Positions 4,102 to 35,412 of a DNA stretch of 64,000 bases are shown here, one piece after another. Position numbers and translations under genes: made by a program. Under the pieces are notes generated by a model. It searched no databases, was not told the DNA's origin, and was given only the letters and a program-made list of their open reading frames with translations. Position 1 is the first letter of the stretch; every line of letters starts with the position of its first letter. Source of the stretch: Arcticibacter tournemirensis (GTDB taxonomy: Bacteria; Bacteroidota; Bacteroidia; Sphingobacteriales; Sphingobacteriaceae). The stretch lies in the NCBI RefSeq assembly GCF_006716645.1, contig NZ_VFPL01000001.1, positions 3,224,001-3,288,000 of the forward strand. Reading direction: 5' to 3'.

Positions 4102-5187
4102 ATGGCAGTAATCGATAGTAAAGGCGGCATCCACGGCACAGCAGGCTCCGTGGTATACCGCAGCTACGGGGGAATGAACATCGTTCAGAGCCGTCCCCGG
4201 CGGTTCAAACAAACAGAGGCCAGCCAGGAGGCTGCCGGAGAATTCGGACTAATCAGTCAGGCATCCAGGGTGATCAGGGAGGCATTCCGTCCCTTTTATC
4301 ACCACTTTCATGACGGAGGGATGGTGAACCGCATGACGGCAGCCGTCTCGCGCAGTATCCGGGGCAGCCGCAGCCGGGAGCGTGGTGACCGCGACCTGCA
4401 CGACGGGGAGCTCTCCTTCCTGGAGGGACTGGAGTTCAATGAAAACTTTAAGTTTTCGCAGGCCCTGCAGTTCAAACCGCAGGTAAAGCGCAATGAGAAG
4501 GGACAGGTAAGCATCAGCCTGCCGGAGATCTACTCACGCAGGGACTTTGTCACCCCTTTCAGGGAAAACGGTAAGGTGAAGAGCTTCCGGCTCAGCTTTG
4601 TACTGGCAGGTTTCAACTTCAGGGAAAAGTTCTATGAGTATATCGGGGAACAGAGTGTCAGTATACGCGTAGGCAGCGTGACTGCCGCCCGCGAGCTGGT
4701 ATTTGAGGACGAAGTACCCAAAGGCTGCCTGCTGCTGGTGCTGGGTATGCTGGAATGTACCGATACGAACGTATACAAAAACCAGCTGGAATCGATCAAC
4801 AGCAGGGATTTCAACCCGGTAAGCCTGATCGCGGCATTCCAGTCGGAAGATGAAGCAGAGGCAGGATATGGGGAAAGCAGGGCCATCCTGCATGATGAAG
4901 AGGCAACAGCAACGGGCATCCCTACCCGTACCCAGCTGATGGCCGGTTACAGGGGGAACGACTTTCTGAGCAGTATGCGTGCCTGGAGGGAGGCGACGGC
5001 GGGGCGGGGAAAGGTGACCGAAGCAGAAGAGAGCCCGGGACTAAGGGATCAGGAACGAGCGCAGCAGCTGCAGGAGATGGAGCAGATAGTAAGGGAGAAA
5101 CTCAGGCAGATGAGCGGGCAGTCGGCCACAGCGGCCAGAGAGGCCATTGACCTGAGCAAGCTCATGGGGAAAAGAGTAGATTTTTAA
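4102..5187 (+). CDS. Unknown GC-rich protein, possibly DUF6266-related
   Basis: A 361-residue protein with no signal peptide or membrane segment. The N-terminus (GGIHGTAGSVVYRSYGGMNI, then QSRPRR) recalls DUF6266 proteins, which open with a glycine-rich segment followed by a Trp/Gly stretch and a proline-basic motif; this link is from memory and tentative. The middle is beta-rich and the last 60 residues are charged and probably helical (QQLQEMEQIVREKLRQM). Base composition is well above its neighbours: by hand count 33/60 G+C in 4201-4260 and 42/60 in 4321-4380. A textbook ribosome binding site precedes the ATG. It stands alone, with 110 bases before the next gene. Together these suggest high expression or recent acquisition. 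Function unknown. Confidence 0.8.
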   Translation: MAVIDSKGGIHGTAGSVVYRSYGGMNIVQSRPRRFKQTEASQEAAGEFGLISQASRVIREAFRPFYHHFHDGGMVNRMTAAVSRSIRGSRSRERGDRDLHDGELSFLEGLEFNENFKFSQALQFKPQVKRNEKGQVSISLPEIYSRRDFVTPFRENGKVKSFRLSFVLAGFNFREKFYEYIGEQSVSIRVGSVTAARELVFEDEVPKGCLLLVLGMLECTDTNVYKNQLESINSRDFNPVSLIAAFQSEDEAEAGYGESRAILHDEEATATGIPTRTQLMAGYRGNDFLSSMRAWREATAGRGKVTEAEESPGLRDQERAQQLQEMEQIVREKLRQMSGQSATAAREAIDLSKLMGKRVDF

Positions 5188-21191: not shown

Positions 21192-21776
21192 ATGATGACT
21201 GAAGAAATTACCGATATAGCAGATGACAAACAACTCCTTGAACGGGTGAAAGCCGGCGACAGGTTGGCTTTTGGGATGATTTACAGTAAGTATTGGTCTA
21301 AATTATATATATATGCTTATAATATTCTCAGGGAGAAACATAGTTGTGAGGATATAGTTCAGGAAATTATGACGGATCTTTGGATACGGAGGGATGTATT
21401 GCAAATTGAATCGCTAAAGGCTTTTTTTCTGGCAGCAACACGATTTCAGGTACTGAAGGTCATCCGATCAGGAAAAGTTAGAAGCGATTTCTTTACACAA
21501 GATCACCAATTACCGGAAGGTTATAATGCTGAACAGACCATTCATAGTAAGGATATAAGCTCAATCGTTGATGAGCACATTTCTCAATTACCTGATAAGT
21601 GCCGTGAAATTTTTACTCTAAGCAGAAAGGAGCAGTTATCTAACCGGGAAATTGCGAAAAAGCTTGGAATAGCACAAAAAACCGTAGAAAATCAAATAAC
21701 TATTGCTATTCGCCGTCTCAGATCCTCTCTCGGCGATGTTTTAGCTTTCATTCTTTTATTCTATACACTCCTTTAA
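21192..21776 (+). CDS. ECF-type RNA polymerase sigma factor
   Basis: A 194-residue sigma-70 family factor with only regions 2 and 4. Region 2 spans about residues 25-95 (HSCEDIVQEIMTDLWIRR carries the core-binding motif) and region 4 spans about 130-180 (LPDKCREIFTLSRKEQLSNR, then LGIAQKTVENQI). It should direct RNA polymerase to the downstream SusC locus when released by the FecR protein encoded next. The C-terminus is a short hydrophobic tail (LAFILLFYTLL), common in this family. The start at 21192 gives MMTEE; the second Met is equally possible. Confidence 0.93.
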   Translation: MMTEEITDIADDKQLLERVKAGDRLAFGMIYSKYWSKLYIYAYNILREKHSCEDIVQEIMTDLWIRRDVLQIESLKAFFLAATRFQVLKVIRSGKVRSDFFTQDHQLPEGYNAEQTIHSKDISSIVDEHISQLPDKCREIFTLSRKEQLSNREIAKKLGIAQKTVENQITIAIRRLRSSLGDVLAFILLFYTLL

Positions 21777-21884
21777 TATTTTTTCGACTTCCTTTTATTA
21801 GTTTTTTGTTAATAAATAATAATTTTTTGAAGATTTCTTTGGGGGTAAAGAGGGGATTTGGGGTACTTACAATCAAATCCCGTT

Positions 21885-23045
21885 ATGGAAAAAAGAAAAT
21901 TTCAGAAGATAGTCACAAAATATCTTAGCGGAAAAGCTTCCGCAGAGGAGGAGAAGCTCCTGGTTAACTATCTTGATAGTTTTCAAAAAGACAATGAAGG
22001 CTGGAACCTCCCCGAAATGGGAGAAGAAGAAATTGTGGGGAATGAACTTTATCAAAAAACGCTACAGGAAATTAAGTCGCGGGAAGAAAGAGGGAAGGTG
22101 TTCAGATTGCGATGGCTCTCGGCGGCAGCATTTGTACTGGTGTTTCTATCCGGGTTGTATTACACCTTACAGAATCGTAATCCGGTTCTGACAAGCAAAG
22201 CAGAAAGATTCAAAAATGATGTTTTGCCGGGCACTTCAAAAGCCACTCTGGTTCTGGCAGATGGGAGACATATCACGTTAGACGGTAAAGAAAACGGAGA
22301 GTTAACGAATGAGGCGGGTGTTATTATAAAGAAAACTAAAGAAGGTCAATTAATCTACGATCTGTCGAAGTCCCCGAGTTCATCAGCAAATGCATCGGAT
22401 ATCATTTATAATATAGTTTCTACTCCCAAAGGGGGGAAATACATGCTAATGTTGGAAGATGGCACAAAAATCTGGCTTAATTCTGCTTCGTCTCTGCGCT
22501 TTCCTGTTGAATTTATTGGAAATACGAGAAGTGTAGAGTTAACAGGCGAAGCCTATTTTGAGGTGGCTAAAAACAGACAAAAACCGTTTCTTGTGAAAAG
22601 TCGGGGAACAGAGGTAAAGGTACTTGGCACTCATTTCAACATCAGCTCTTATGAGAATGATCCGGCAGTGAAAGCTACTTTATTGGAAGGATCTGTAGAG
22701 GTTTCAAATAATCATAAAAAAGTATTGCTAAAGCCCGGTAATCAGGCCGGAATTTCAAATACCGGGATAAAGATCATTGAAAATGCCGATACAGAGATGG
22801 AGATGGCCTGGAAAAATGGTTTTTTTCAATTTAAAGATGCAAGGCTGAAAGATATTATGAGGCAACTTTCCCGGTGGTATGATGTAGAATTTGAATACAG
22901 TGGAAAGCTACCCGACGAAGAATTTACAGGTATTATCGCACAATCAGTGAAAATCTCTAAAGTACTGGAGATGCTGGAGCAGGGAGGCGGGGTTGCATTT
23001 AGAATTGAAGGAAGAAAAATAACAGTAACATCAACACAGGAATAA
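21885..23045 (+). CDS. FecR-type anti-sigma factor with DUF4974 domain
   Basis: A 386-residue inner membrane protein. Residues 1-70 form the cytoplasmic sigma-binding domain (KYLSGKASAEEEKLLVNYL); a single membrane helix follows near residues 77-96 (WLSAAAFVLVFLSGLYYTL); the periplasmic part has the FecR domain (TPKGGKYMLMLEDGTKIWLN, then GEAYFEVAK and GTHFNI) and a C-terminal DUF4974 domain (FKDARLKDIMRQLSRWY). It should hold the sigma factor until signalled by the N-terminal domain of the SusC receptor. The ATG at 21885 is preferred over an upstream TTG because it directly precedes the sigma-binding domain. Confidence 0.93.
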   Translation: MEKRKFQKIVTKYLSGKASAEEEKLLVNYLDSFQKDNEGWNLPEMGEEEIVGNELYQKTLQEIKSREERGKVFRLRWLSAAAFVLVFLSGLYYTLQNRNPVLTSKAERFKNDVLPGTSKATLVLADGRHITLDGKENGELTNEAGVIIKKTKEGQLIYDLSKSPSSSANASDIIYNIVSTPKGGKYMLMLEDGTKIWLNSASSLRFPVEFIGNTRSVELTGEAYFEVAKNRQKPFLVKSRGTEVKVLGTHFNISSYENDPAVKATLLEGSVEVSNNHKKVLLKPGNQAGISNTGIKIIENADTEMEMAWKNGFFQFKDARLKDIMRQLSRWYDVEFEYSGKLPDEEFTGIIAQSVKISKVLEMLEQGGGVAFRIEGRKITVTSTQE

Positions 23046-23114
23046 ATTTAATAACCCAGATATATATGATAATAAACAGTACTTAAAGAATATTCAGAGG
23101 GTTAAGAAATAATA

Positions 23115-23142
23115 CCTGCTCCGGATTGCGCCCCGGAGCAGG
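23115..23142 (+). repeat. Perfect 10-bp GC-rich hairpin between fecR-like and susC-like genes
   Basis: CCTGCTCCGG (23115-23124), loop of 8 bases, CCGGAGCAGG (23133-23142). It is strong, but no T run follows. It may partly stop transcription or protect an mRNA end between the regulatory genes and the transport genes. The spacing before the SusC start is 113 bases. Confidence 0.75.
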
Positions 23143-23255
23143 AAGTGTTACCCTGTCTCCAGGAAAGGCATTTGGATAACATGTTCAGGTTAACCCCATT
23201 CAAATTATTACCAATCGTTTCATTTAATCAGCATTAACCCAAACAGAGCAAAAGT

Positions 23256-26200
23256 ATGAAACATGCTTTACTTTACCAATGCAGATACCTCAGTATCTGT
23301 CTGAAAATCTTTATGCTGCCCTATAGGCAACATTCAGGAACATTATTCTCGCAATTAGTACGGATTATGAAGATTACGGGGATTATAATACTGGCCGCCT
23401 GCCTCCATGTCAGCGCCGCCCTTTATTCTCAAAAGGTAACTCTTAAGGAACAGAACAGTAAGTTGTCAGATGTATTCGTTCGTCTGCGTCAGCAAACAGG
23501 ATACAATTTTATTTATAATAATAAGCTCCTGAAGAAGGCTGTACCGGTTACTGTAAATGCAGCTGATGAACAACTGGAGGAAGTACTTGGTTCAATCTTT
23601 AAAAATCAGCCGTTAAGCTTTTCTATTATTGAAAAGACAATCGTTGTAAAGGAAAAGGAAAAAACAGTTTTATCCGAAATTACAAACTATGTAAAGAACG
23701 CGATGGAGTCGGTAATCCCCGACGGTCCGGTGAGGGGTATCGTGACAGACGAAAGGGGGGATCCGCTTCCGGGGGTGACTATCACACTGACAATACCAGG
23801 TGCGCAAGCAAGAAGTGTGGCGAGTAATGCGGATGGTAAATATTCATTTAGTGCTGTGCCATCCGGAGCTGTGCTTCTTTTCAATATGATTGGATTTAAG
23901 CGACAGGAAATTGCGGTAGCAAATAAGGAGGTAATTAATGTAAAGCTTCAGCCTGACGTTAAAGAACTGCAGAATGTGGTTATCACGGGATATCAGGAAA
24001 TCAAAAAAGACAACTATACAGGAAACGCTATCGTTATCAAAGGTGACGACCTTAAAAAGACGAATCCGCAGAATGTGCTGAAAGCTATTCAAAGCTTTGA
24101 CCCATCTTTCAAGTTACTGGAGAACAACCTGGCGGGATCAGATCCTAACGCAATGCCAAGAATTAATGTTCGTGGAGCCACTGCATTACCGGCGATTCCT
24201 ACAAATGCTGATGATTTAGTAAACCGTGAGAATTTATCTGCTCAATTTAACCTTCCCGCTTTTATACTGGATGGTTTCGAAGTATCAGTACAAAAGGTAG
24301 TCGATTTAGACATTAACCGTATAGAATCGGTAACCCTGCTCAAAGATGCTGCTGCAACGGCCGTATATGGTTCGCGTGCTGCAAACGGTGTAATGGTGAT
24401 CACCACAAAGGCTCCTGTTTCAGGGAAGCTCCAGTTATATTATAACTCTGAGCTCCAGGTTACAGCTCCGGATCTCTCGGGATATGATATTTTAAATGCA
24501 GCCGACAAGGTTGCGTATGAACAGAAGGCTGGTTTGTTTAGTACTCAAACCGCTGGTGTGGGTGACAATACCCAGGACAAACTGGACGCTGAGCTGTTTA
24601 TCCGGCTTAAAAATGTAGCCAGCGGGGTAAATACCTACTGGCTCTCTCAGCCACTGCGTAATGCCTACGGACAGAAGCATTCTCTGAATGTGCAAGGCGG
24701 AGACCAGACTTTCAGATATGGTGTCGATTTGCGTTATCAAACCATGCCAGGTGTAATGAAGGGTGCGACAAGGGACAGGTTTAGTGGCGGTATGAACTTT
24801 ACGTATAACCCTTCGCCTAAGCTTCTCATCAGAAATGACCTTTCTGTAAACCAGACGAATGGAGTTAATTCCAATTATGGCAGCTTCTCAACATACGCAA
24901 GTATGAACCCGTATTATCCGATAAGAGATAGCGTAGGAAGAATTGTACAGGAACTGGCGAACTGGCGTGTAGATACCTATAGAGAGGGGAGCGACCAATA
25001 CATAAACAGATACGTATTTAATCCATTGCATGAAGCGAGTTTGAGCAATTTCAGCAAAGAATCATATTTTGAGATGATTGATGCGTTATCTGCCGACTAT
25101 AAAATATCCGGAAGTTTGCGGTTGAGGGCTTTGATAAGTCTGAATAACACCATTAGTAAATCTGACAAGTTTCTTTCCCCTTTTAGCAAGGAGTTTTATG
25201 ATTATTCAACTAACGACTTAAATAAAAGAGGAAGTTATGATTACTCCAACACCAACAGGCTTGGTATAGACGGTACAATCTCATTAAGTTACAATAAGCA
25301 GATCAATGATCACTTCTTCAACCTGGTAGCAGGCACCAATGTACTGTCGGCGAAGTCCGACTTTAAGTCGTTTTCTGCTCAGGGTTTCTCGAACGACAGG
25401 TTCACAAATGTCGGTTTCGCCAGGATTTACAAAGAAAATTCTTCGCCAGATGGAGATGTACTGATCCAGAGAACCCTGGGTGCTTTTTTCTCGGGTAATT
25501 ACTCTTACAAAAATAAATACCTGATGGATGCTTCTTTTCGACTGGATGGATCATCTGCTTTCGGAGCCGACAGCAGGTTTGCACCTTTTTGGGCGCTAGG
25601 CCTGGGATGGAATATCCACAATGAGAACTTCCTGAAGGATAATGCATTTATCAGTCAGGTTCGTTTAAAAGCCAGTACAGGTATCCTCGGTTCTATTGGC
25701 TTCCCGGCGTACATGTCGCGTTCTATTTATACTTATTACAGCAACAACTGGTACTCTACCGGAATCGGTGCCGCTACCAGCAATTATGGAAATACCAACC
25801 TGGAATGGCAAAAAACAGAAACTTATGATGTCGGCCTGGATATCGGGTTCCTGAAAGATCGTTTTGTGATCTCCCCGCGGTATTACTACAAGCTAACCAA
25901 AGGCTTGATCACCGACATCAATCTTGCTCCATCTACTGGTTTTACAACGTATAAAGAAAACCTCGGCGACATGAGCAATAAAGGGTACGAAGTTTACCTG
26001 AAGGCAAATCTGTTCACCCGTAACGATGCTTATATCAATATTACCGGAAATATAGCCCACAATGAGAATACAATTGTGAAGATCTCAAATTCATTAAAGG
26101 CCTTTAACAAACAGATTGACGATATACAAAAGGATGAAAAGAATAAACTTTATGCGATGCCTTTACTTCGCTATAATGAAGGTCAGTCCCTCAATACCAT

Positions 26201-26771
26201 ATATGGAGTGAAATCTCTGGGGATCGATCCTGAAAATGGCAAGGAGATCTTTGTAAAAACAGATGGTTCTTTAACCTATGAGTATGATGTAAGGGATACA
26301 CGGCCTATTGGTAACAGTACCCCCGTGGTTGAAGGCAATATTGGCAGTTCAATAGGTTACAAAAGGTTTACGCTAAGCTTTAATTTCTGGTACAGGCTGG
26401 GTGCGGACATTTACAATCAGACTTTGGTTGATCGTATAGAAAATGCTGATCCCCGCTTTAATGTAGACAGAAGAGCGATGACTTTACGTTGGTCGGAGCC
26501 TGGGGATGCCGCTTTGTATAAGAACATCCAAGATCTGACACCAACAAAGGCCAGCTCACGGTTTATACAACGTGAAAGTCTGATAGATCTTCAGTCGGTA
26601 TATCTTTCTTACGATTTTAAACGCGACTTAGTTCGCAGGATAGGATTCCAAAACATCCGGGCTTCGGTTTCAATGAACGACCTGTTCAGATCGTCTAGCA
26701 TAAAAATTGAAAGAGGTATCAATTCACCATACGCGAGAAGTGCAACGTTCTCGCTACTTGCGGCATTTTAA
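23256..26771 (+). CDS. SusC/RagA-type TonB-dependent receptor with signalling domain
   Basis: A 1171-residue outer membrane transporter. After the signal sequence (ITGIIILAACLHVSAALYSQ; several Met codons precede it) comes an STN signalling domain at about residues 60-130, which in this class contacts FecR. A carboxypeptidase-like beta domain follows (VRGIVTDERGDPLPGV), then a TonB-box-like VVITGYQEIKK, the plug (LLKDAAATAVYGSRAANGVM) and a 22-strand barrel to the C-terminal Phe (LLAAF). With the SusD-type protein encoded next, it imports a substrate across the outer membrane using TonB energy. The STN domain fits the sigma/anti-sigma pair upstream: substrate binding induces the locus. Substrate unknown. 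Confidence 0.95.
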   Translation: MKHALLYQCRYLSICLKIFMLPYRQHSGTLFSQLVRIMKITGIIILAACLHVSAALYSQKVTLKEQNSKLSDVFVRLRQQTGYNFIYNNKLLKKAVPVTVNAADEQLEEVLGSIFKNQPLSFSIIEKTIVVKEKEKTVLSEITNYVKNAMESVIPDGPVRGIVTDERGDPLPGVTITLTIPGAQARSVASNADGKYSFSAVPSGAVLLFNMIGFKRQEIAVANKEVINVKLQPDVKELQNVVITGYQEIKKDNYTGNAIVIKGDDLKKTNPQNVLKAIQSFDPSFKLLENNLAGSDPNAMPRINVRGATALPAIPTNADDLVNRENLSAQFNLPAFILDGFEVSVQKVVDLDINRIESVTLLKDAAATAVYGSRAANGVMVITTKAPVSGKLQLYYNSELQVTAPDLSGYDILNAADKVAYEQKAGLFSTQTAGVGDNTQDKLDAELFIRLKNVASGVNTYWLSQPLRNAYGQKHSLNVQGGDQTFRYGVDLRYQTMPGVMKGATRDRFSGGMNFTYNPSPKLLIRNDLSVNQTNGVNSNYGSFSTYASMNPYYPIRDSVGRIVQELANWRVDTYREGSDQYINRYVFNPLHEASLSNFSKESYFEMIDALSADYKISGSLRLRALISLNNTISKSDKFLSPFSKEFYDYSTNDLNKRGSYDYSNTNRLGIDGTISLSYNKQINDHFFNLVAGTNVLSAKSDFKSFSAQGFSNDRFTNVGFARIYKENSSPDGDVLIQRTLGAFFSGNYSYKNKYLMDASFRLDGSSAFGADSRFAPFWALGLGWNIHNENFLKDNAFISQVRLKASTGILGSIGFPAYMSRSIYTYYSNNWYSTGIGAATSNYGNTNLEWQKTETYDVGLDIGFLKDRFVISPRYYYKLTKGLITDINLAPSTGFTTYKENLGDMSNKGYEVYLKANLFTRNDAYINITGNIAHNENTIVKISNSLKAFNKQIDDIQKDEKNKLYAMPLLRYNEGQSLNTIYGVKSLGIDPENGKEIFVKTDGSLTYEYDVRDTRPIGNSTPVVEGNIGSSIGYKRFTLSFNFWYRLGADIYNQTLVDRIENADPRFNVDRRAMTLRWSEPGDAALYKNIQDLTPTKASSRFIQRESLIDLQSVYLSYDFKRDLVRRIGFQNIRASVSMNDLFRSSSIKIERGINSPYARSATFSLLAAF

Positions 26772-26781
26772 TTTAAAATAT

Positions 26782-28272
26782 ATGAAGCACTATATATATA
26801 TCATACTCATCGGGCTGGCTTTTTCTTCCTGCAAAAAGTTTCTTGATGTACAACCAGAGTCGGATGTTACAAAGGAGGATCTGTTTAAAACAGAGGAGGG
26901 CTTTAAGGAGGCGCTGAACGGGGTGTACAACCTAAACGCCGAAAAATCATTATACGGAGAGAACCTTACTTTCGGCAATCTGGATATTATGGCTCAAAAC
27001 TATGATTTTACCGACGCGAATCCACGTAAGGTACAATCATTCCTGTATGAAGATCAGTTCCTTATCAGCAAGAACGATGAAATTTGGGCCTCGGCCTATA
27101 AAGCAATCGGGAATATCAACTCGATACTGGAGGCCGTTGAGAAGAACAAGGGCGTTTTATTTGATAAAAACTACGAACTGATTAAGGGCGAAGCGCTTAC
27201 TTTGCGGGCCTATCTGCACTTTGACCTGCTTAGGATGTTTGCTCCTTCGTTCGTAAGTAAACCGAATGCCGTAGCTATTCCATACGTAACCATCGTATCG
27301 ATTAAAAGTACTCCGTTCTCTACAACCACTGAGGTGTTGAATAAGATAATTGCTGACTTAACGGAGGCGAAACAACTGTTAAAAGTTGCCGACCCTATTT
27401 TATCTGCAGGTTATATTGTTGGTTACCCTGACAAAACTTATCCTGATGATTTTCCAGAGGCAATGAAATCGACAGAGACGAGCAGTAACTCGCTCTTTCT
27501 TCAGAACAGAAGACACAGAATGAACTATTACACTGTTTGCGGAGAATTAGCAAGGGTGTACTTGTATAAAGGCGACATGGTGAACAGCCTGGCAAATGCA
27601 AAAGAGGTAATTGATTCGGGCAAATTTCCATGGACAAAACAGCAAGACTTTTTCAGTAGCAATTCGCAGCAGCGGGATAAGGTGTTTTATCCTGAGATCA
27701 TCACTGGTTGGTATGTTCCTCAATCGCAAGAGCTTCTCAATCGTTTGTTTTCAAACGATAATCCAAGCAATGCGCCTACTATTACACAAAAGGAGTTTAT
27801 ATATGAGAAAGGAAGTGTGGGAGCAGAGGACTGGAGGTTCAGGCAGTGGTTTCGTGATGTACCAGTCAATAATTCACCAGGGCGCTCTCTGGTACAAAAA
27901 TATACATGGAACGGTACTCCTCAAAGGAATATGCACCCTACGGTGGCACCTGCGATGCGTTTATCTGAAATGTATTACATAGCAGCAGAAGCAACCTTTG
28001 ATACCGACCCTGTAAAGGCAACCGCTTATGTAGACAGTGTGCGTTTCCATAGAGGAATAGGAGTAGCGTTGCCTAAAACGATCGCAAAACCAGACTTTAT
28101 CAGAAAGCTGGTTGAGGAAGCACGTAAGGAGTTTTATGGTGAAAGCCAGATCTTTTACATGTATAAAAGGCTGAACAGGGATGTTATCAATACCAACGGA
28201 ATGGTCTATCCGGCAAGTGATGAGATCTTTGTTTTCCCATTACCATTAGATGAATTAGCTTATAGAAATTAA
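26782..28272 (+). CDS. SusD/RagB-type substrate-binding lipoprotein
   Basis: A 496-residue outer membrane lipoprotein, the lid of the SusCD transporter. The signal peptide ends in LAFSSC, with Cys17 as the lipid-modified residue, followed by KKFLDVQPESDVTKEDLFKT, the hallmark start of mature SusD proteins. Helical TPR-like segments follow (GEALTLRAYLHFDLLRMF) and the C-terminal half has the RagB/SusD domain with RLSEMYYIAAEA. The start is 11 bases after the SusC stop; an in-frame extension upstream overlaps susC and lacks signal-peptide character. It captures the substrate at the cell surface. Confidence 0.95.
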   Translation: MKHYIYIILIGLAFSSCKKFLDVQPESDVTKEDLFKTEEGFKEALNGVYNLNAEKSLYGENLTFGNLDIMAQNYDFTDANPRKVQSFLYEDQFLISKNDEIWASAYKAIGNINSILEAVEKNKGVLFDKNYELIKGEALTLRAYLHFDLLRMFAPSFVSKPNAVAIPYVTIVSIKSTPFSTTTEVLNKIIADLTEAKQLLKVADPILSAGYIVGYPDKTYPDDFPEAMKSTETSSNSLFLQNRRHRMNYYTVCGELARVYLYKGDMVNSLANAKEVIDSGKFPWTKQQDFFSSNSQQRDKVFYPEIITGWYVPQSQELLNRLFSNDNPSNAPTITQKEFIYEKGSVGAEDWRFRQWFRDVPVNNSPGRSLVQKYTWNGTPQRNMHPTVAPAMRLSEMYYIAAEATFDTDPVKATAYVDSVRFHRGIGVALPKTIAKPDFIRKLVEEARKEFYGESQIFYMYKRLNRDVINTNGMVYPASDEIFVFPLPLDELAYRN

Positions 28273-28285
28273 ATCTGGAATTACC

Positions 28286-29140
28286 ATGAAACGATATTTT
28301 ATATATACTTTTCTGCTAGCCTTGTTTCTATCGGCCTGCGAAAAAAACGACATATCTTTATATGATAGCGACGTTGACAACATCTATCTGAATTATCTGG
28401 ATGACAAAGGAAAGAACGATAGCAGTATAGTTACTTATTCGTTCGCCGGCAGTCCCGGCCTGGCGAGTGATACCATCTGGATTCCGGTAGCAGTTGCCGG
28501 GAAGCGGGTTAACCGCGACCGAAAATTTGTGCTGTCTGTAGTAGATACTTTGACTTCAGCACAAAAAGATATGCATTATGAGCCGTTAAAGCCCTTTTAT
28601 ATCATGCCGGCAGATTCGGGTAAAACAAGGGTGCCTCTGATCATTAAAAACACCGATCCCCAACTGGCAAACACTTCGGTGGTGCTCTCGCTGCGCATCA
28701 TACAAAGCGAAGATTTTGCAGCTGAACTGCCGGTTGCTATCCGTACCAAAATGTTTGTGTATTCGAACAGGCTGGAACAGCCTGCCTGGTGGGTGTATTG
28801 GATGGGAAATCTGGGCACATATAGTAGAACGTCTCATAAGTTGTTTCTAATTTCCGGAGGACAAGACTTAGTCATTCCTACGGCGCCAGACGCCTATATG
28901 GGAATACCCAGAACCCTGTACTATCTGGAGAATGTAAAGAACTTTACTGTTGATCCTTTTACATGGATTTTAAGGAATCCTGAAAAAGGATACGTGCTGG
29001 CTAAGAGAAATGATGGAACTGAAGACTACGACTTTTATCAGAAAGAGTCTCCTCTGGTAAAAATTCATCTTAAGTTCTTTCCCCAGGTGAACCGCTATTT
29101 CTTTATGAACGAGAATGGGAATCAAGTTATTTTTAACTAA
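28286..29140 (+). CDS. DUF4843 domain surface lipoprotein
   Basis: A 284-residue lipoprotein with the lipobox LFLSAC (Cys18). The mature part has the DUF4843 pattern: NIYLNYLDD early, DTIWIPVAVAGKRVNRDRKF, then YWMGNLGTYSRTSHKLFL. The domain is confined to SusCD loci in Bacteroidota and is thought to be an extra surface substrate-binding protein. It starts 13 bases after SusD and precedes the PKD-like lipoprotein, the usual order for this kind of locus. Confidence 0.88.
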   Translation: MKRYFIYTFLLALFLSACEKNDISLYDSDVDNIYLNYLDDKGKNDSSIVTYSFAGSPGLASDTIWIPVAVAGKRVNRDRKFVLSVVDTLTSAQKDMHYEPLKPFYIMPADSGKTRVPLIIKNTDPQLANTSVVLSLRIIQSEDFAAELPVAIRTKMFVYSNRLEQPAWWVYWMGNLGTYSRTSHKLFLISGGQDLVIPTAPDAYMGIPRTLYYLENVKNFTVDPFTWILRNPEKGYVLAKRNDGTEDYDFYQKESPLVKIHLKFFPQVNRYFFMNENGNQVIFN

Positions 29141-29148
29141 GGCATATC

Positions 29149-30588
29149 ATGAAAAGTAAGTATATATATCTTTTAGCCATTGTGGCTCTGTTTTATACCT
29201 CGTGTAAGAAGGATCTTGGAAACTATGATTATTCTCCTCCTTCAGAGCCAGTAATTGAAGGTATCCGGAATGCAAATATCCCTGCGCTGATTGGCGATTC
29301 CTTAATCATAAAACCGAAGGTAAGCCTGGCAGGCGCTGATCCGCTGACGGACCTCAGCTTTGAGTGGAGAATCCTTTTATTAGAAGAACTCCGTGAGCTG
29401 AGTTTCACTGGTTATCCATTTAAAATGCTTTTCAATCTAGGCACAGGTGAAAGGGCTGCAAAACTTATAGTAACAGACAAGCGGAATGGTCTCATTTATA
29501 AATATGAATTCAAGATCACGGGTACTACCCAGTTTTCTTCAGGAACAGTGATCTTAAGTAATGAGGGAGGAAAGGGCAAACTTTCTTTCGTAAAATCCGA
29601 CAATACTGTTCTTGCCAATATTTATGAAACACTGCAGCCTGGCCTTGTTTTGCCAAACAACCCGGTGCAGCTTTATTATTCCAAACCCTTACCATACCAG
29701 CTATTAAGCAAAGAGGAATACTGGATCATGTGCAATGACGCCAGCTCTGGCAGTGTCATTGTTAATCCAAGTACATTATTCTTTAAAGAAAATTTCAGAT
29801 CTCAGTTTTTCCTTCCTCCATCCACGGTTACCCCCGGGCATTTGGAGACCTTAATGGGAACCATCTCCCATGGTGTGATTAATGGAAAGCTGTATGTTGG
29901 TATTCAAAGTACTGCTCCATTTGCTCCTGACTATGGGAAGTATGCAAATCCACAACCGGGAGATTATGAGCTGTCGCCAATGTTCACAAAGGGAGGTTCT
30001 TTCTACCTCGGATATGACACAAAAATCAAGGCCTTCGTTGTTTTTGATGGTGGAGGATCGTATTTAGGAACCAATTACGGAACCGGGACCGCCACTACGC
30101 TTCCTTTCAATCCCAAGAATATCGGGATGAGTAACCTGGTGTATTTTAAAGCAAGTGAGTCTGGTACCACATATGCTTTTTTCAGGGACGAAACAGGCAC
30201 CTGGGAGTATAGATTTAATAACAGGCTTAATGAAGGAACTAAAGAAATTGTCCCTGAGCAAAAGAGGAAATTCGCAGGCTCGTCATTGGTGCTGGCAGAT
30301 TCAAAATGGGTGCGCAACAACTTAAACGTATTTTATTTCTCGTCGGCCGATAAGATCTACCGGTACAATCCGATTAATGAGGAGGTGCGGGCCCTTGACG
30401 CGAATTTTGGCGGCAAGAAAGTTTCAATGATCAAAATCAGTGCTGACGACAATACCCTAACTGTTGGTGTAGAAGGAGCCTTATATAGTCTGGATGTTAC
30501 TGTTGGCAAAAACGGAAATATTGTAGAGGCCAAAACAATAAATGGAATTCCAGGATCTCCGGTTGACGTCCTGGTTAGAACTAATTAA
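29149..30588 (+). CDS. PKD-like family surface lipoprotein
   Basis: A 479-residue lipoprotein, with lipobox LFYTSC (Cys19) and then KKDLGNYDYSPPSEP. Residues about 30-130 form an Ig/PKD-like fold (LSFEWRILLLEELRELS, then GERAAKLIVTDKRNG); the rest has beta-strand periodicity that may form a propeller (DKIYRYNPINEEVRALD). Such proteins accompany DUF4843 in SusCD loci and are assumed to bind substrate outside the cell. The gap to the previous gene is 8 bases, so it is in the same operon. Confidence 0.85.
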   Translation: MKSKYIYLLAIVALFYTSCKKDLGNYDYSPPSEPVIEGIRNANIPALIGDSLIIKPKVSLAGADPLTDLSFEWRILLLEELRELSFTGYPFKMLFNLGTGERAAKLIVTDKRNGLIYKYEFKITGTTQFSSGTVILSNEGGKGKLSFVKSDNTVLANIYETLQPGLVLPNNPVQLYYSKPLPYQLLSKEEYWIMCNDASSGSVIVNPSTLFFKENFRSQFFLPPSTVTPGHLETLMGTISHGVINGKLYVGIQSTAPFAPDYGKYANPQPGDYELSPMFTKGGSFYLGYDTKIKAFVVFDGGGSYLGTNYGTGTATTLPFNPKNIGMSNLVYFKASESGTTYAFFRDETGTWEYRFNNRLNEGTKEIVPEQKRKFAGSSLVLADSKWVRNNLNVFYFSSADKIYRYNPINEEVRALDANFGGKKVSMIKISADDNTLTVGVEGALYSLDVTVGKNGNIVEAKTINGIPGSPVDVLVRTN

Positions 30589-30599
30589 ATAACATAGAA

Positions 30600-31742
30600 A
30601 TGAAACTACACTATTTGATTTTAGCTGCGATGGCTCCGGTCTTCGTTGCTGCACAAACTCCGAACTTTACCCTAACCGGTAAAATAGGAAACCTAAACAA
30701 ACCAGCAAAGGTATATTTTGACTATACAGAGAATGGAAATAATCATATGGATTCGGCTGATGTGGTTAACGGGGCGTTCAAGTTCTCGGGTAATATCACA
30801 GGAATAGCCTTTTCCAGGATGACGCTTTCCCATGACGGCAAAGGGAAAAATAATGAAATTTATGCTAAGGGAGCCGGAGACGTTATCTATTTCTATTTTG
30901 GTGCTGAGAACATTAAGGTGACTTCCGTCGACTCACTGTATAACGCCAAATTCACAGGGTCGAAAGTGTACAACGAGATGCTTGCTTTTGACAAGGCGAC
31001 AGGAGAGACAGTGATGGCTATTAACCGTACAGCCAATCTTGTTATGGAGAGGGCCACGCCCGAACAGCAAAAAGACCCTGAATTCTTTAAGGCACTGGAT
31101 GTTCAGGTAAAGGGAAAAACAGCTGCACGAAAAGACAAACTGGTACAGTTCGCAAAAAACAACCCTGATTCTTATTTCTCTGTTGCGGGATTGACCGAAG
31201 CTTTTAATGCTTACAGAGTACCGGTGACCGATATAGAAGCTGTATTCAACAAGCTGAGCGAACAACAGCGCAAAACGTATGCGGGGATAAACCTGGCGAA
31301 GCTTATCGAGGCGAACAGTACAACTGCTATTGGAGCCAAAGCGCCGGTTTTTGCTCAGAAAGACACGACTGGAAAGCCCATAGCTTTAACTGATCTGAGA
31401 GGTAAATATGTGCTGGTTGAATTTTGGGCGAGCTGGTGTCATCCTTGTCGTCTGGAGAGCCCCAACCTGTTAAAGCAGTATCAAATCTATAAAGAAAAAG
31501 GATTTGAGATCCTTGCCGTATCCCTGGATAGTGATAAAGGACGATGGATCGAGGCAATAACCAAAGATGGCTTAACCTGGCCGCAGGTTTCCGATTTAAA
31601 GGGGTCTGGCAATGAGGTGGCAAAGCTGTATGGTGTAACTGCCGTGCCCGCAAATTTTCTGGTTAGTCCTGAAGGGAAAATTATTGCCAAAGACCTGCGG
31701 GGTGAAGATCTGAACAAAAAACTGGCGGAAACGCTGAATTAA
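30600..31742 (+). CDS. TlpA-like thiol-disulfide oxidoreductase with DUF4369-type N-terminus
   Basis: A 380-residue secreted protein. A signal peptide (LILAAMAPVFVAA) precedes a beta-rich N-terminal domain (FTLTGKIGNLNKPAKVYFDY) of the DUF4369 type and a helical middle. The C-terminal 133 residues form a thioredoxin fold with WCHPC (Cys280 and Cys283) and a cis-Pro in TAVPANF (Pro350). The active site resembles TlpA/ResA reductases, which reduce disulfides outside the cytoplasm. It follows the two lipoproteins by 11 bases. In this locus it could reduce disulfides in an imported protein or keep an enzyme active; this is inference. Confidence 0.93.
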   Translation: MKLHYLILAAMAPVFVAAQTPNFTLTGKIGNLNKPAKVYFDYTENGNNHMDSADVVNGAFKFSGNITGIAFSRMTLSHDGKGKNNEIYAKGAGDVIYFYFGAENIKVTSVDSLYNAKFTGSKVYNEMLAFDKATGETVMAINRTANLVMERATPEQQKDPEFFKALDVQVKGKTAARKDKLVQFAKNNPDSYFSVAGLTEAFNAYRVPVTDIEAVFNKLSEQQRKTYAGINLAKLIEANSTTAIGAKAPVFAQKDTTGKPIALTDLRGKYVLVEFWASWCHPCRLESPNLLKQYQIYKEKGFEILAVSLDSDKGRWIEAITKDGLTWPQVSDLKGSGNEVAKLYGVTAVPANFLVSPEGKIIAKDLRGEDLNKKLAETLN

Positions 31743-31771
31743 AAGGATTCATACCGGGTAGTGTCAGTTTT

Positions 31772-33658
31772 ATGAAGTCAATAAGATTTTTCAAAGTAAT
31801 AATCACGGTCATTCTTTCAGCAGCAGCAATACAATCTGTTGCTGCTGAATTGAAGGGGGCAAAAATAGCACTTAGAGTACTCTACGTAGGTTACAGTCCT
31901 GAAAGACCGATGCCTGCCAATGTGGTTTATTACAGTACAGTTCCCAAAGTAGTTGAGCAGGTCTACAAAACAAGAATGTCCGATTTTAAAGCTTTTCTTG
32001 AAAGCCGGTTCAGCAAAGTCGAAACAGTGGATGTAAGAGATTATACTCCTGACATGTCCAATAATGCTGATGTTACTATTCTGGATGCCGGCCCGGTGAA
32101 GTTGCCCGCTGATTTTAGCCGGCCTGTAGTTCTGATGCATGCTATGGCGCCTAACGTTGGCTTGCCCATAGGGCTGAAATTCGACTGGTACTGCCAGTGT
32201 CTTGAAGATGATGCGCTAAACATCAATACGAAGCATGAGATCTTTAATTCGCCTATAAAAGTCAAGCTGACGATGGTAAAAAGGCCTACACCAGAGTCAT
32301 TTTTCAACGGTTTCCAGGGTCTGAAAACTCCGAAAGAAATGCCGATGTGGAAGGTGATCAAAGAGGAATCATCCGCCACGGAGAAGTATATTATTGGGAT
32401 GGTCTCTCACGGCGAGGGATTTAACGATTCTCCGGACGCGGAGTCTATATCCGGAGGTGTATGCCTTAAAAATGCGGAAGCAGTGGCACTTGGACGACAG
32501 GGCAACTACTTTATGTGGGGATTCTCGGCTTCGCCGGATCACATGACCGATGAAGCGAAAGATGTATTTGTAAATGCTGTTTGCTATATCCGGAAATATG
32601 ATCATCAGCTGCCGATAGTAAAGAAGGTACAGATCGAAACCCGTGAATGGATTGACGAGAGGATGTACCGTACTGATAAGTCGCTGTATGAAAAGGCGAT
32701 CATTTCGCGACAGGAGGGTAATGCCCGGATGCTGAAATTACAGCAGGACTTGAAAGCTAAGAAAGCTGCAGGGGAAGATATTGGATACGCCAACGAAATG
32801 TTCCTCAAGATGCCTGTTAGTAATGAAACGGAAAGTTTTGCCGACTATTTAAAGGGGCAGAATGGTGCTGAGCTGTTCAGTCGCTTTGGCGAGAACACAG
32901 CCTTATATCATAAGTACTACCGGGATAATTACGAGTATTTTTATCCCTCTGATGCTTATTCCTTACAGCTCGACACAGATGTCCAAAAACTGCGCATTTC
33001 GAACAGGAAGATCGGGCTTCTCGAAAAATGTATAGAAATGCTGGAAAAAAATCAGGATCCGGCAACGGCTCAAAAGATACTGGAACGGTATACCACAGAG
33101 AAATTTACAACCGCAGCGGATTGGAGAAACTGGTTTACTAAGAACAAGGCGAAGTTGTTTTATACAGAAGCCGGCGGCTTTAAGTTTATGGTCAATACCA
33201 TTGGGGCGGCTTCATCGCCGGCCGGTGAAAAAGCAATGATCATAGACGATAATAACGGTGCGACAGAGCCAACGTTAAGTGATCCTGTATCGGTGTCTGC
33301 TAAACTTGTTTATGCGGCCGACAGAAAAAGTGCAGATCTGTTCATTTATGCTAACATGTTGAAAGGATGGCATGTGTATGCCTTTGTTCCTTCGGGAAGT
33401 CCCTTTATACAAACAGAACCGCGACTTGAGTTACCGGAAGGAGCCGTTACAGTTAAAGACTGGCAAACGCCGGCGGCTTTGCCTTTCCCGGACGACAAGG
33501 GCGTTTTTATATTTGAGGGGAAAGTGTTCTATAAAATGAAAATTGACTGCAGCGCTGTAAAGCCTGGTTCAGTAATTAAATGTGGTTTGTTTTACCAAAC
33601 CTGTAACGACAATAAGTGCCTTCAGCCTACCACAAAAATGGTAGAAGTAACCATCTGA
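31772..33658 (+). CDS. Secreted protein with C-terminal DsbD-alpha-like domain
   Basis: A 628-residue protein with a signal peptide (ITVILSAAAIQSVAA). Residues about 28-290 look like an alpha/beta domain that binds nothing I can name; it resembles glutamine-amidotransferase-like (ThuA) folds in layout (VLYVGYSPERP, then DVTILDAGPVKLP and RPVVLMHAM). A helical middle follows (LKLQQDLKAKKAAGEDIGYA). The last 130 residues are DsbD N-terminal (alpha)-like: VSVSAKLVYAADRKSADLF, WHVYAFVPSG and the Cys pair in YQTCNDNKCLQP. In DsbD that Cys pair passes electrons to other periplasmic proteins. The fusion and position after the thioredoxin gene point to a shared redox job. The stop overlaps the next start (TGATG). 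Confidence 0.82.
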   Translation: MKSIRFFKVIITVILSAAAIQSVAAELKGAKIALRVLYVGYSPERPMPANVVYYSTVPKVVEQVYKTRMSDFKAFLESRFSKVETVDVRDYTPDMSNNADVTILDAGPVKLPADFSRPVVLMHAMAPNVGLPIGLKFDWYCQCLEDDALNINTKHEIFNSPIKVKLTMVKRPTPESFFNGFQGLKTPKEMPMWKVIKEESSATEKYIIGMVSHGEGFNDSPDAESISGGVCLKNAEAVALGRQGNYFMWGFSASPDHMTDEAKDVFVNAVCYIRKYDHQLPIVKKVQIETREWIDERMYRTDKSLYEKAIISRQEGNARMLKLQQDLKAKKAAGEDIGYANEMFLKMPVSNETESFADYLKGQNGAELFSRFGENTALYHKYYRDNYEYFYPSDAYSLQLDTDVQKLRISNRKIGLLEKCIEMLEKNQDPATAQKILERYTTEKFTTAADWRNWFTKNKAKLFYTEAGGFKFMVNTIGAASSPAGEKAMIIDDNNGATEPTLSDPVSVSAKLVYAADRKSADLFIYANMLKGWHVYAFVPSGSPFIQTEPRLELPEGAVTVKDWQTPAALPFPDDKGVFIFEGKVFYKMKIDCSAVKPGSVIKCGLFYQTCNDNKCLQPTTKMVEVTI

Positions 33659-35412
33659 TGAAAAAACATAAGCTAAATACACTATTAGTAGCCATATTCT
33701 TTATTACCATCCACAATGTTCTTTACGCTCAGAAGTTTGACAGAGCAGGCATAGAGTGTACAATACATAAAGCGGTGAACAAAGCGTACAACACCAGCGT
33801 GAGGATTTGGGGGTTTGACATAGTTAAGCAAATGCAAACCAGCGGTCAGTTTAGCGGAGTTGTGGTGAGTGCCGAAGGACACATTCTTACAGCGGCACAT
33901 GTAAACGTTCCGGGCAACACCTACAAAGTAATGTTCGCCGATGGAACTGAATATTTCGCCAAAGGCCTGGGAGAAATCGAGCTTGCCGGCAACAGGACCA
34001 TACCTGACGTTGCTATGATGAAAATCATGGGCAAGTTTAAAGGCCCTTACGCTGAAATGGGCTGGTCCTATTCACTGAAAAAGGACGAACCTTGTATCAG
34101 TATTGCTTATCCCGAAAGCCTCAACCAGCCCTTGCCAACAGTGCGGTTTGGACGGATTGCGGATCCGAACAATAAGTACGGATTTGTACAATCTACCTGC
34201 ATCATGGAGCCCGGCGATTCGGGAGGTCCGTTGTTCGATTACTTCGGGCGGGTGATAGGACTGCACAGCGCCATTGACGTTTCAGAAAGTGACAATTTTG
34301 AAATACCGGTAGATCTTTACAGGAAATACTGGACAGCCCTGAACAAAGAAGAAACATATAAAGAATACCCCCAGCTAAAAGACACCATAGGGATAGATCC
34401 CTTGATTGGTAAAATTATAACAGTCCCGGGACTTCAAAAACCGGAGAAGAACTTCACAGCCCTCATTTCCAGATTAAATACGTACTCTCTGCCGGTTCAA
34501 AGCAACATAAATGATATTGTCCAAACAGTATTTGGAACTCTCTTTTCATTAAAGGGATCTACATTCGATAAAAAGTTCGATAACAGAAGCATCCTGGTTA
34601 GCAAAAGCTCAATGGTAGGAGAGGATCCCGGTGTAGTATGGAAAGGTAAAAAGATTGAAGCCAGGGTAATTCTAAGGGATAAGGAAACCGACTTGATACT
34701 GTTAGAAATGGATTGGAAGCGCAATAGTGGGATAGAGGTTGCAGAATTAAGCCCCGATACATCAGATTTTGAGCAGTTAGGCAAATTCCTCATATCTCCT
34801 CTGGGCGGCGATACCAGTAAAATAAGTGTATTGGGCAGTCGGGAAATCAGCTTACCGAAACTAGCCAGTTCTGCCTATCTCGGCACAGAGGTAGGGATGA
34901 AGCAAGGCTGGGTGACATTAACTGATATTAAACAAAGCTCTCCGGCCGCTGAAGCCGGCCTGAAACAAGGAGACCAGGTGCTGAACCTTAACGGCATAAA
35001 TATCGAAACCTCTGATGATTTTTCAAACGCACTTAAAAAATACTGGCCGGGCGATGAGATTAAGATCAAAGTGATGAGGCCTGACAGTTTGCGTTCAGTA
35101 GATATTACGCTGATAAAAGAAGTTGTTTTGGGAAGCCGGCCTCAACGCAATAATGGTCACCCCGCCGAAATGTTCGCGGGCGGCAAAAGCAGCAGACGCG
35201 ACGGTTTCGCAGGGGTGTTTGTCCACGATGCAGTTCTACGCCCCGAACAGTGCGGAGGGCCTGTTTTTGATGCTACAGGCCGTTTTTACGGTATAAATAT
35301 TGCACGCTATAGTCGCACAGCTAGCTTGATTATTCCTTCTCAGTCTGTTCTCCGGTTAATCGACAGGTACATACAGTCTGAACTATCTGCATCGATGCTT
35401 TCGAAGCAATAG
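33658..35412 (+). CDS. Secreted trypsin-like protease with a second degenerate protease-PDZ module
   Basis: A 584-residue secreted protein (signal peptide to about residue 24, HNVLYAQ). The first domain is a complete S1 trypsin-like protease: His81 (LTAAHVN), Asp117 (TIPDVAM) and Ser188 (EPGDSGGPLF). The second half resembles another such domain with a PDZ domain (about 412-475, SPAAEAGLKQGDQVLNLNG) inserted before its nucleophile strand: Asp345 is kept (ETDLILLEM), the His position is lost and the nucleophile is Cys532 (PEQCGGPVFD). So one module is probably active and the other binds or holds substrate. The start is the ATG overlapping the previous stop. This is the last gene of the locus. 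Inferred role: cleaving a protein substrate for the SusCD importer. Confidence 0.88.
   Translation: MKKHKLNTLLVAIFFITIHNVLYAQKFDRAGIECTIHKAVNKAYNTSVRIWGFDIVKQMQTSGQFSGVVVSAEGHILTAAHVNVPGNTYKVMFADGTEYFAKGLGEIELAGNRTIPDVAMMKIMGKFKGPYAEMGWSYSLKKDEPCISIAYPESLNQPLPTVRFGRIADPNNKYGFVQSTCIMEPGDSGGPLFDYFGRVIGLHSAIDVSESDNFEIPVDLYRKYWTALNKEETYKEYPQLKDTIGIDPLIGKIITVPGLQKPEKNFTALISRLNTYSLPVQSNINDIVQTVFGTLFSLKGSTFDKKFDNRSILVSKSSMVGEDPGVVWKGKKIEARVILRDKETDLILLEMDWKRNSGIEVAELSPDTSDFEQLGKFLISPLGGDTSKISVLGSREISLPKLASSAYLGTEVGMKQGWVTLTDIKQSSPAAEAGLKQGDQVLNLNGINIETSDDFSNALKKYWPGDEIKIKVMRPDSLRSVDITLIKEVVLGSRPQRNNGHPAEMFAGGKSSRRDGFAGVFVHDAVLRPEQCGGPVFDATGRFYGINIARYSRTASLIIPSQSVLRLIDRYIQSELSASMLSKQ

Follow-up and report, generated by a model that had tools for sequence, protein, structure and literature searches.

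SusCD pairs are usually taken to be glycan importers, and a 'pedal bin' route of import is known for SusCD and RagAB systems. RagAB of Porphyromonas gingivalis is of the same SusCD type as the locus described here; its RagA is, by E-value, the best solved relative of our SusC, and to our knowledge RagAB has no DUF4843 or PKD_2 partners. The papers cited in this article are cited for the sections consulted. RagAB takes up peptides that proteases have cut (PMC11817032), and in the main text of that paper the words 'thioredoxin' and 'disulfide' occur 0 times. A SusCD complex that stably holds two extra lipoproteins has been reported (PMC7618045), and extra lipoproteins likewise accompany the pair at our locus. 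Peptidases in or near polysaccharide utilization loci (PULs) have already been published (PMC7768429, PMC6298971), BtuG is treated in PMC10404256, and the consulted sections of PMC9122927 contain no thioredoxin.

Has a linkage of SusCD pairs to thioredoxins and peptidases been described before? Judged by titles and the starts of abstracts, our searches found no report of it and no description of a reductive step coupled to SusCD import, and they found DUF4843 only in work on other subjects. SusCD, thioredoxin, peptide and disulfide were treated apart and not as linked in the portions of the literature consulted; nothing relevant to SusC together with TlpA stood among the best 20 of 119 matches, which were swamped by 'susceptible', and a further query on the linkage gave nothing among the best 20 of 37 matches. 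SusCD uptake loci are known, but as far as this search shows, the class of SusCD loci with thioredoxins and peptidases and the probable ThuA/DsbD-alpha protein that we describe here are new.

Layout of the locus

The locus occupies nine genes of the window, by which we mean the whole stretch of 64,000 nucleotides that was analysed (Table 1). An earlier note, made from the sequence alone, had listed these nine genes in order on a single strand, and all nine were found where it placed them, with Pfam or NCBIfam support for every name. Its overlap between the last two genes amounts to one base (P8 stop TGA 33656-33658, protease start ATG 33658), and its lack of a glycoside hydrolase agrees with Pfam, which found none in the nine proteins. 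The 'small gaps' it described apply to the run from SusC to the protease, where no gap exceeds 29 bp (7, 13, 8, 11 and 29 bp from SusC through the P8 gene, with the starts chosen here); upstream the spacing is wider, with 108 bp between sigma factor and FecR and 210 bp between FecR and SusC.

Table 1. Genes and protein parts of the SusCD locus (window positions)
Feature	Position	Strand	Basis
ECF sigma factor (TIGR02985)	21192..21776	+	NCBIfam match
FecR anti-sigma factor	21885..23045	+	Pfam; start taken as ATG 21885, with TTG 21858 in frame
SusC/RagA TonB-dependent transporter with STN domain	23256..26771	+	TIGR04056, 585 bits
SusD lipoprotein (SusD-like_3)	26779..28272	+	Pfam; start chosen ATG 26779
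DUF4843 lipoprotein	28286..29140	+	Pfam
PKD_2 lipoprotein, PKD-like domain and predicted beta-propeller	29149..30588	+	Pfam, model
TlpA-like thioredoxin, DUF4369 and AhpC-TSA	30600..31742	+	Pfam, motif WASWCHPC
P8, ThuA-like/DsbD-alpha fusion protein	31772..33658	+	Pfam, alignment, model
P8, probable ThuA-like part, residues 31-279	31862..32608	+	Structure match 4jqs, low-confidence stretches
P8, DsbD-alpha part, residues 501-628	33272..33655	+	Pfam, structure match 1vrs_C
P9, trypsin-PDZ protease with second, degenerate trypsin-like stretch	33658..35412	+	Pfam, alignment

No terminator-like site on the + strand lies within any gap of the SusC-to-protease run, and given this packing, a single predicted transcript for these genes is the simplest inference. 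Promoter-like sites number 43, compared with 33.0 (sd 5.4) in shuffled sequence, which is about the density of a weak consensus; one of them, at 28281-28309 and scoring 9/12, begins inside the gap between SusD and DUF4843. With a TIGR04056 SusC and a SusD-like_3 protein separated by 7 bp, the locus is a SusCD (RagAB) transporter locus; with nine genes and no glycoside hydrolase among them, it is not a polysaccharide utilization locus. Elsewhere in the window, at 4415-4489, ARAGORN reports a tRNA whose anticodon, tta, corresponds to a stop; this prediction is probably false.

The importer proteins

What do the importer proteins say about the substrate? The closest solved chains of SusC are RagA (6sli, E = 4.6e-46) and the 'SusC homolog' chains 8aa4 (1e-45) and 5t3r (1.3e-42), and since 8aa4 and 5t3r, which we take to be glycan transporters, are nearly tied with RagA, similarity of SusC cannot decide between peptide and glycan. 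The PKD_2 protein was modelled with a pLDDT of 91.7 as a PKD-like domain and a beta-propeller; its top Foldseek match is BT1487 (4r5o), which covers the PKD part too, and it also resembles BtuG1 (8ptd; Z 24.2, rmsd 3.1, 291 aligned) and XusB (9hqk; Z 20.5, rmsd 3.4, 293 aligned), as well as numerous unrelated propellers with Z near 20. By sequence, the DUF4843 and PKD_2 profiles match no solved chain at E <= 0.01 (best E 0.62 and 0.04, respectively), and we therefore set aside sequence kinship with solved chains, although an absent match does not amount to a different fold. The two extra lipoproteins of the SusCD complex mentioned in the opening are presumably among the solved chains that these two profiles did not match.

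By eye, a lipobox Cys is present in the SusD, DUF4843 and PKD_2 proteins, whereas TlpA, P8 and the protease start with plain signal peptides that have no lipobox; this division points to capture at the cell surface and to periplasmic sites for both reduction and cutting. The earlier note had put both of these steps outside the cytoplasm, which is likely, and the plain signal peptides would place them more narrowly, in the periplasm and after import. SusC and the SusD, DUF4843 and PKD_2 proteins have at most one Cys each beyond signal or lipid positions; without Cys pairs in these proteins, the thioredoxin hardly serves to fold them, and we consider a role as importer-folding factor unlikely.

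The thiol proteins and the protease

The only two Cys of the TlpA protein (280 and 283) lie within the WCHPC motif of its AhpC-TSA domain. This motif, an AhpC-TSA match of 90.4 bits and a signal peptide recognized by eye identify it as a thioredoxin of the TlpA/ResA kind, with a score below the NCBIfam cut-off for ResA itself (104.9 vs 170). P8, of 628 residues and single-copy in its own genome, has DsbD_N as its only Pfam match (PF11412, residues 511-626, 41.1 bits). Its C-terminal end superimposes on 1vrs_C (Z 10.6, rmsd 2.4, 105 aligned) and on ScsB (6c29; Z 10.6, rmsd 3.2, 127 aligned), and Cys 604, 611 and 616 are invariant in this end across 26 aligned sequences; the fold and the redox pair 611/616 make this a DsbD-alpha domain. 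P8 thus resembles the periplasmic reductases DsbD and ScsB in alpha fold and Cys pair but differs from them in that the alpha domain is fused behind a probable ThuA-like domain and that Pfam finds neither a membrane nor a thioredoxin part; P8 is not a full DsbD. The N-terminal part is probably ThuA-like, as suggested by a model that matches 4jqs (Z 9.7, rmsd 4.0, 180 aligned), has low pLDDT at 132-147 and 195-240 and lies in a region with no Pfam match. A Cys-x-Cys (141, 143) and Cys 231 in this part are also invariant in the 26 aligned sequences.

Where would P8 obtain electrons? Two DsbD membrane proteins score over the cut-off elsewhere in the same genome, and each adjoins a separate DsbD_N protein of ~150 aa. 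DsbD is thus split here and DsbD_N free-standing, so that a detached alpha partner is normal in this genome, and P8 may be viewed as a further partner of this kind for the split DsbD. At one locus of this genome (L145, C1 2246000-2260000), three small TlpA-like proteins surround a split DsbD with separate DsbD_N and DsbD_TM genes.

The protease P9 was analysed as a protein fragment that starts at 33661, one residue short, and residue numbers follow this fragment. Its trypsin triad is intact in 15 of 15 aligned sequences, and Cys 145, 180 and 531 are likewise invariant, with Cys 180 seven residues ahead of the catalytic Ser. Behind the PDZ domain lies a second Trypsin_2 match, weak at 26.6 bits (cut-off 27.6), in which the His is lost and the position of the Ser is a Cys in 15/15. 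Despite its triad and PDZ domain, P9 falls short of HtrA/Deg by the NCBIfam measure, with 119.3 bits against degP_htrA_DO, for which the cut-off is 416.2.

A class of SusCD loci linked to thioredoxins and peptidases

DUF4843 matches over the cut-off occur in 36 of the 121 family genomes and in six of 296 phylum genomes, and the match in the window is the sole one in its own genome. For a comparison, we used the 60 best-scoring DUF4843 loci of the 121 family genomes, with the window excluded; these loci are interrelated, and 28 genomes supplied them all. As controls, we chose 40 loci manually among high-scoring SusD_RagB matches listed for seven genomes, with 20 from the window's own genome, and they therefore represent canonical SusCD loci and no random draw. 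ORF starts were set at the first ATG, and gaps are approximate. Four pairs of control windows overlap (L101/L106, L105/L116, L107/L108, L110/L114), by which eight downstream proteins are counted twice, and the contiguous downstream run is empty in seven of the 40 controls and in two of the 60 class loci.

Canonical glycan PULs, to which the controls belong, have the same SusC and SusD families as the window, but the genes downstream are different. Of the 60 interrelated DUF4843 loci, 50 have a WCxPC thioredoxin in the contiguous run downstream, as against none of the 40 hand-picked controls, a contrast that a profile count within 7 kb reproduces (50/60 vs 0/40); 23 class loci have two or more such thioredoxins and 10 have none. 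Two of the loci without one (L054, L087) have genes of an ABC-2 transporter with auxiliary domain instead. Peptidases are also prominent. Among 83 other downstream proteins of the class, Pfam found Trypsin_2 in 15, Met-zincin (DUF4953/5117/5118) in 10, aspartyl protease in six and S46 in five, with the first and last counts overlapping because Trypsin_2 also matches an S46 protein. The downstream ORFs of at least 180 aa number 182, of which the first 150 were considered; the 83 were taken from these after thioredoxins had been removed by eye, and two of the 83 still carry WCGPC. No glycoside hydrolase is among the 25 commonest of their 71 families, whereas the 25 commonest of the 94 families in the controls include GH43, GH97, GH10, GH76 and GH2 and no peptidase; the control figures cover 87 of 104 proteins, with apparent SusC, SusD and sigma proteins and everything from L116 (six proteins) and L131 (four) omitted and three duplicates among the 87.

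The linkage of thiol and protease genes to related SusCD pairs, as the earlier note had suggested it, is thus upheld for thioredoxins and for peptidases at large, but the trypsin-PDZ protease itself lies within 7 kb of only 11 of the 60 class loci. The reductase pair did not survive as a class feature: the P8 fusion is present in two of the 60 loci and in six of the 121 family genomes (and in one of 395 phylum genomes, the window's own), which rejects a DsbD fusion in every related locus, and among these six family genomes DUF4843 lies within ~5 kb of P8 in three (its own, G087 and G088) and is absent or more than 60 kb away in the others (G092, G094, G119). Nor is the lack of glycoside hydrolases a rule among relatives, with GH3 in one class locus (L049) and GH29 and GH92 near P8 homologues, as described below.

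On a SusC tree, a quick build of 98 of 101 possible rows (L067, L106 and L131 were dropped, their SusC being too short or distant), a branch with support 100 divides the class from the controls. Thioredoxin linkage, mapped on this tree as a label, changes 6 times, compared with 32.8 in shuffles. The linkage looks ancestral in the DUF4843 class, with a handful of losses. By the thioredoxin counts, the peptidases of the class and the split among SusC sequences, the window locus falls within a separate SusCD class as far as such sequence comparisons define one, and this class most likely imports protein or peptide, with thiol reduction. The window's own genome also has SusCD pairs of different type that directly adjoin a gene with a thioredoxin domain (L141, L142, L143, L144, L147, L148), in the orders Trx-SusC-SusD or SusC-SusD-Trx (checked by Pfam for L141 and L143), and the thioredoxin link is therefore wider than the DUF4843 class.

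Loci around P8 homologues

Homologues of P8 were found at 31 loci, in Pedobacter, Mucilaginibacter and MAGs labelled Chitinophagales, Sphingobacteriaceae or Bacteroidetes; four of the contigs (L020, L025, L026, L031) end inside the fetched stretch. SusC is near in 29 of the 31, a thioredoxin gene also in 29, DUF4843 and PKD_2 in 25 and trypsin-PDZ in 14, and a trypsin, M16, BSP or HExxH-lipoprotein gene is present in 25, a count in which genes outside the Pfam scan were assigned by protein clusters. Among the extra genes are M16 peptidases, with a Pfam match in L001 and L021, and a BSP peptidase in L006 and L010. At four loci (L021, L023, L025, L029), P8 stands beside another SusCD type without DUF4843 or PKD_2, and at L030 it occurs without SusCD; the redox part is therefore not tied to one importer. 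DsbD_TM genes lie upstream of the sigma gene in L023 and L025. L005 and L013 have GH29 immediately next to the protease gene, with GH92 behind it in L005.

Between PKD_2 and TlpA, six loci (L001, L002, L005, L007, L016, L027) have an unnamed lipoprotein of ~318 aa in up to three tandem copies. HExxH is present in 11 of 11 copies from these loci, the L005 copy has no Pfam match, and the sequence motif makes this protein a possible surface metallopeptidase.

A proposed model for the uptake of protein and its alternatives

Starting from the gene order, the domains, the intact WCxPC motif and trypsin triad, and the linkage of thioredoxins and peptidases to the class, we propose an operon that takes up protein or large peptides from outside the cell, is controlled by a sigma/anti-sigma pair and includes the opening of disulfides and cutting in the periplasm, a reading that we prefer but to which we give only middling confidence. 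The substrate, the locations of the proteins, the path of the electrons and the opening of disulfides are what we infer. The SusD, DUF4843 and PKD_2 lipoproteins, the last with its beta-propeller, would seize the substrate at the cell surface, and SusC would bring it in by the TonB-driven 'pedal bin' route. In the periplasm, P8 would draw electrons from a DsbD membrane reductase encoded elsewhere and pass them to TlpA, TlpA would open disulfides in the imported substrate, and the trypsin-PDZ protease would cleave the chain. More tentatively, and here we lean toward doubt, there may be a whole SusCD branch for disulfide-bonded protein that combines import, reductive unfolding and cutting, with P8 as an electron hub dedicated to the locus and fed by the chromosomal DsbD.

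Might the propeller lipoprotein capture a micronutrient instead; might it bind a metal complex or a cofactor in the manner of BtuG and XusB, perhaps still within a carrier protein that protease and reductases would strip away? The PKD_2 model does resemble BtuG1 and XusB, capture proteins for vitamin B12 and siderophores share the propeller fold, and sigma/FecR pairs serve iron uptake as well; however, propellers are common, with BT1487 as the top match and many unrelated ones near Z 20, and the DUF4843 class repeatedly includes peptidases of several distinct families, and we regard micronutrient capture as distinctly unlikely. Data on the iron response of three Bacteroidetes, in which TlpA, redoxin and trypsin-like genes are regulated apart from the SusCD entries (PMC10434189, in the sections consulted), are neutral and help this idea in neither direction. 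It is unlikely that the operon takes up the peptide core of glycoproteins or glycopeptides whose glycans are stripped outside or by other loci. The GH29 genes that adjoin the protease gene, with GH92 behind one of them, lie in tight same-strand runs, as this reading would have it, but they occur in just two of 31 P8 loci (20 accessory or exemplar proteins were scanned with Pfam), and a glycoside hydrolase is absent from the window's nine proteins and from the 25 commonest families of the class, the GH3 of L049 notwithstanding.

The invariant Cys of P9, including the one at the second Ser position, raise another question: could TlpA and P8 have the protease, or other partners in the periplasm, as their target instead of the cargo? 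The pairing of these Cys is putative, and with a thioredoxin at 50 of 60 class loci but trypsin-PDZ at 11, such a protease is missing beside most of the linked thioredoxins; we consider a redox-gated protease quite improbable. As for chance neighbours or general periplasmic stress genes, the window's own genome has 34 AhpC-TSA matches and thioredoxin-like genes are therefore common, but the comparison of 60 class loci with 40 controls rejects chance linkage for the DUF4843 class, as the clustering of the thioredoxin label on the SusC tree also argues, and we give this explanation almost no credence.

Outlook

If the proposed uptake of extracellular protein is correct, SusCD import would be coupled to a reductive step, and annotators could name SusCD systems that feed on protein from sequence, by their place in the branch that has DUF4843 and PKD_2 together with thioredoxins and peptidases.
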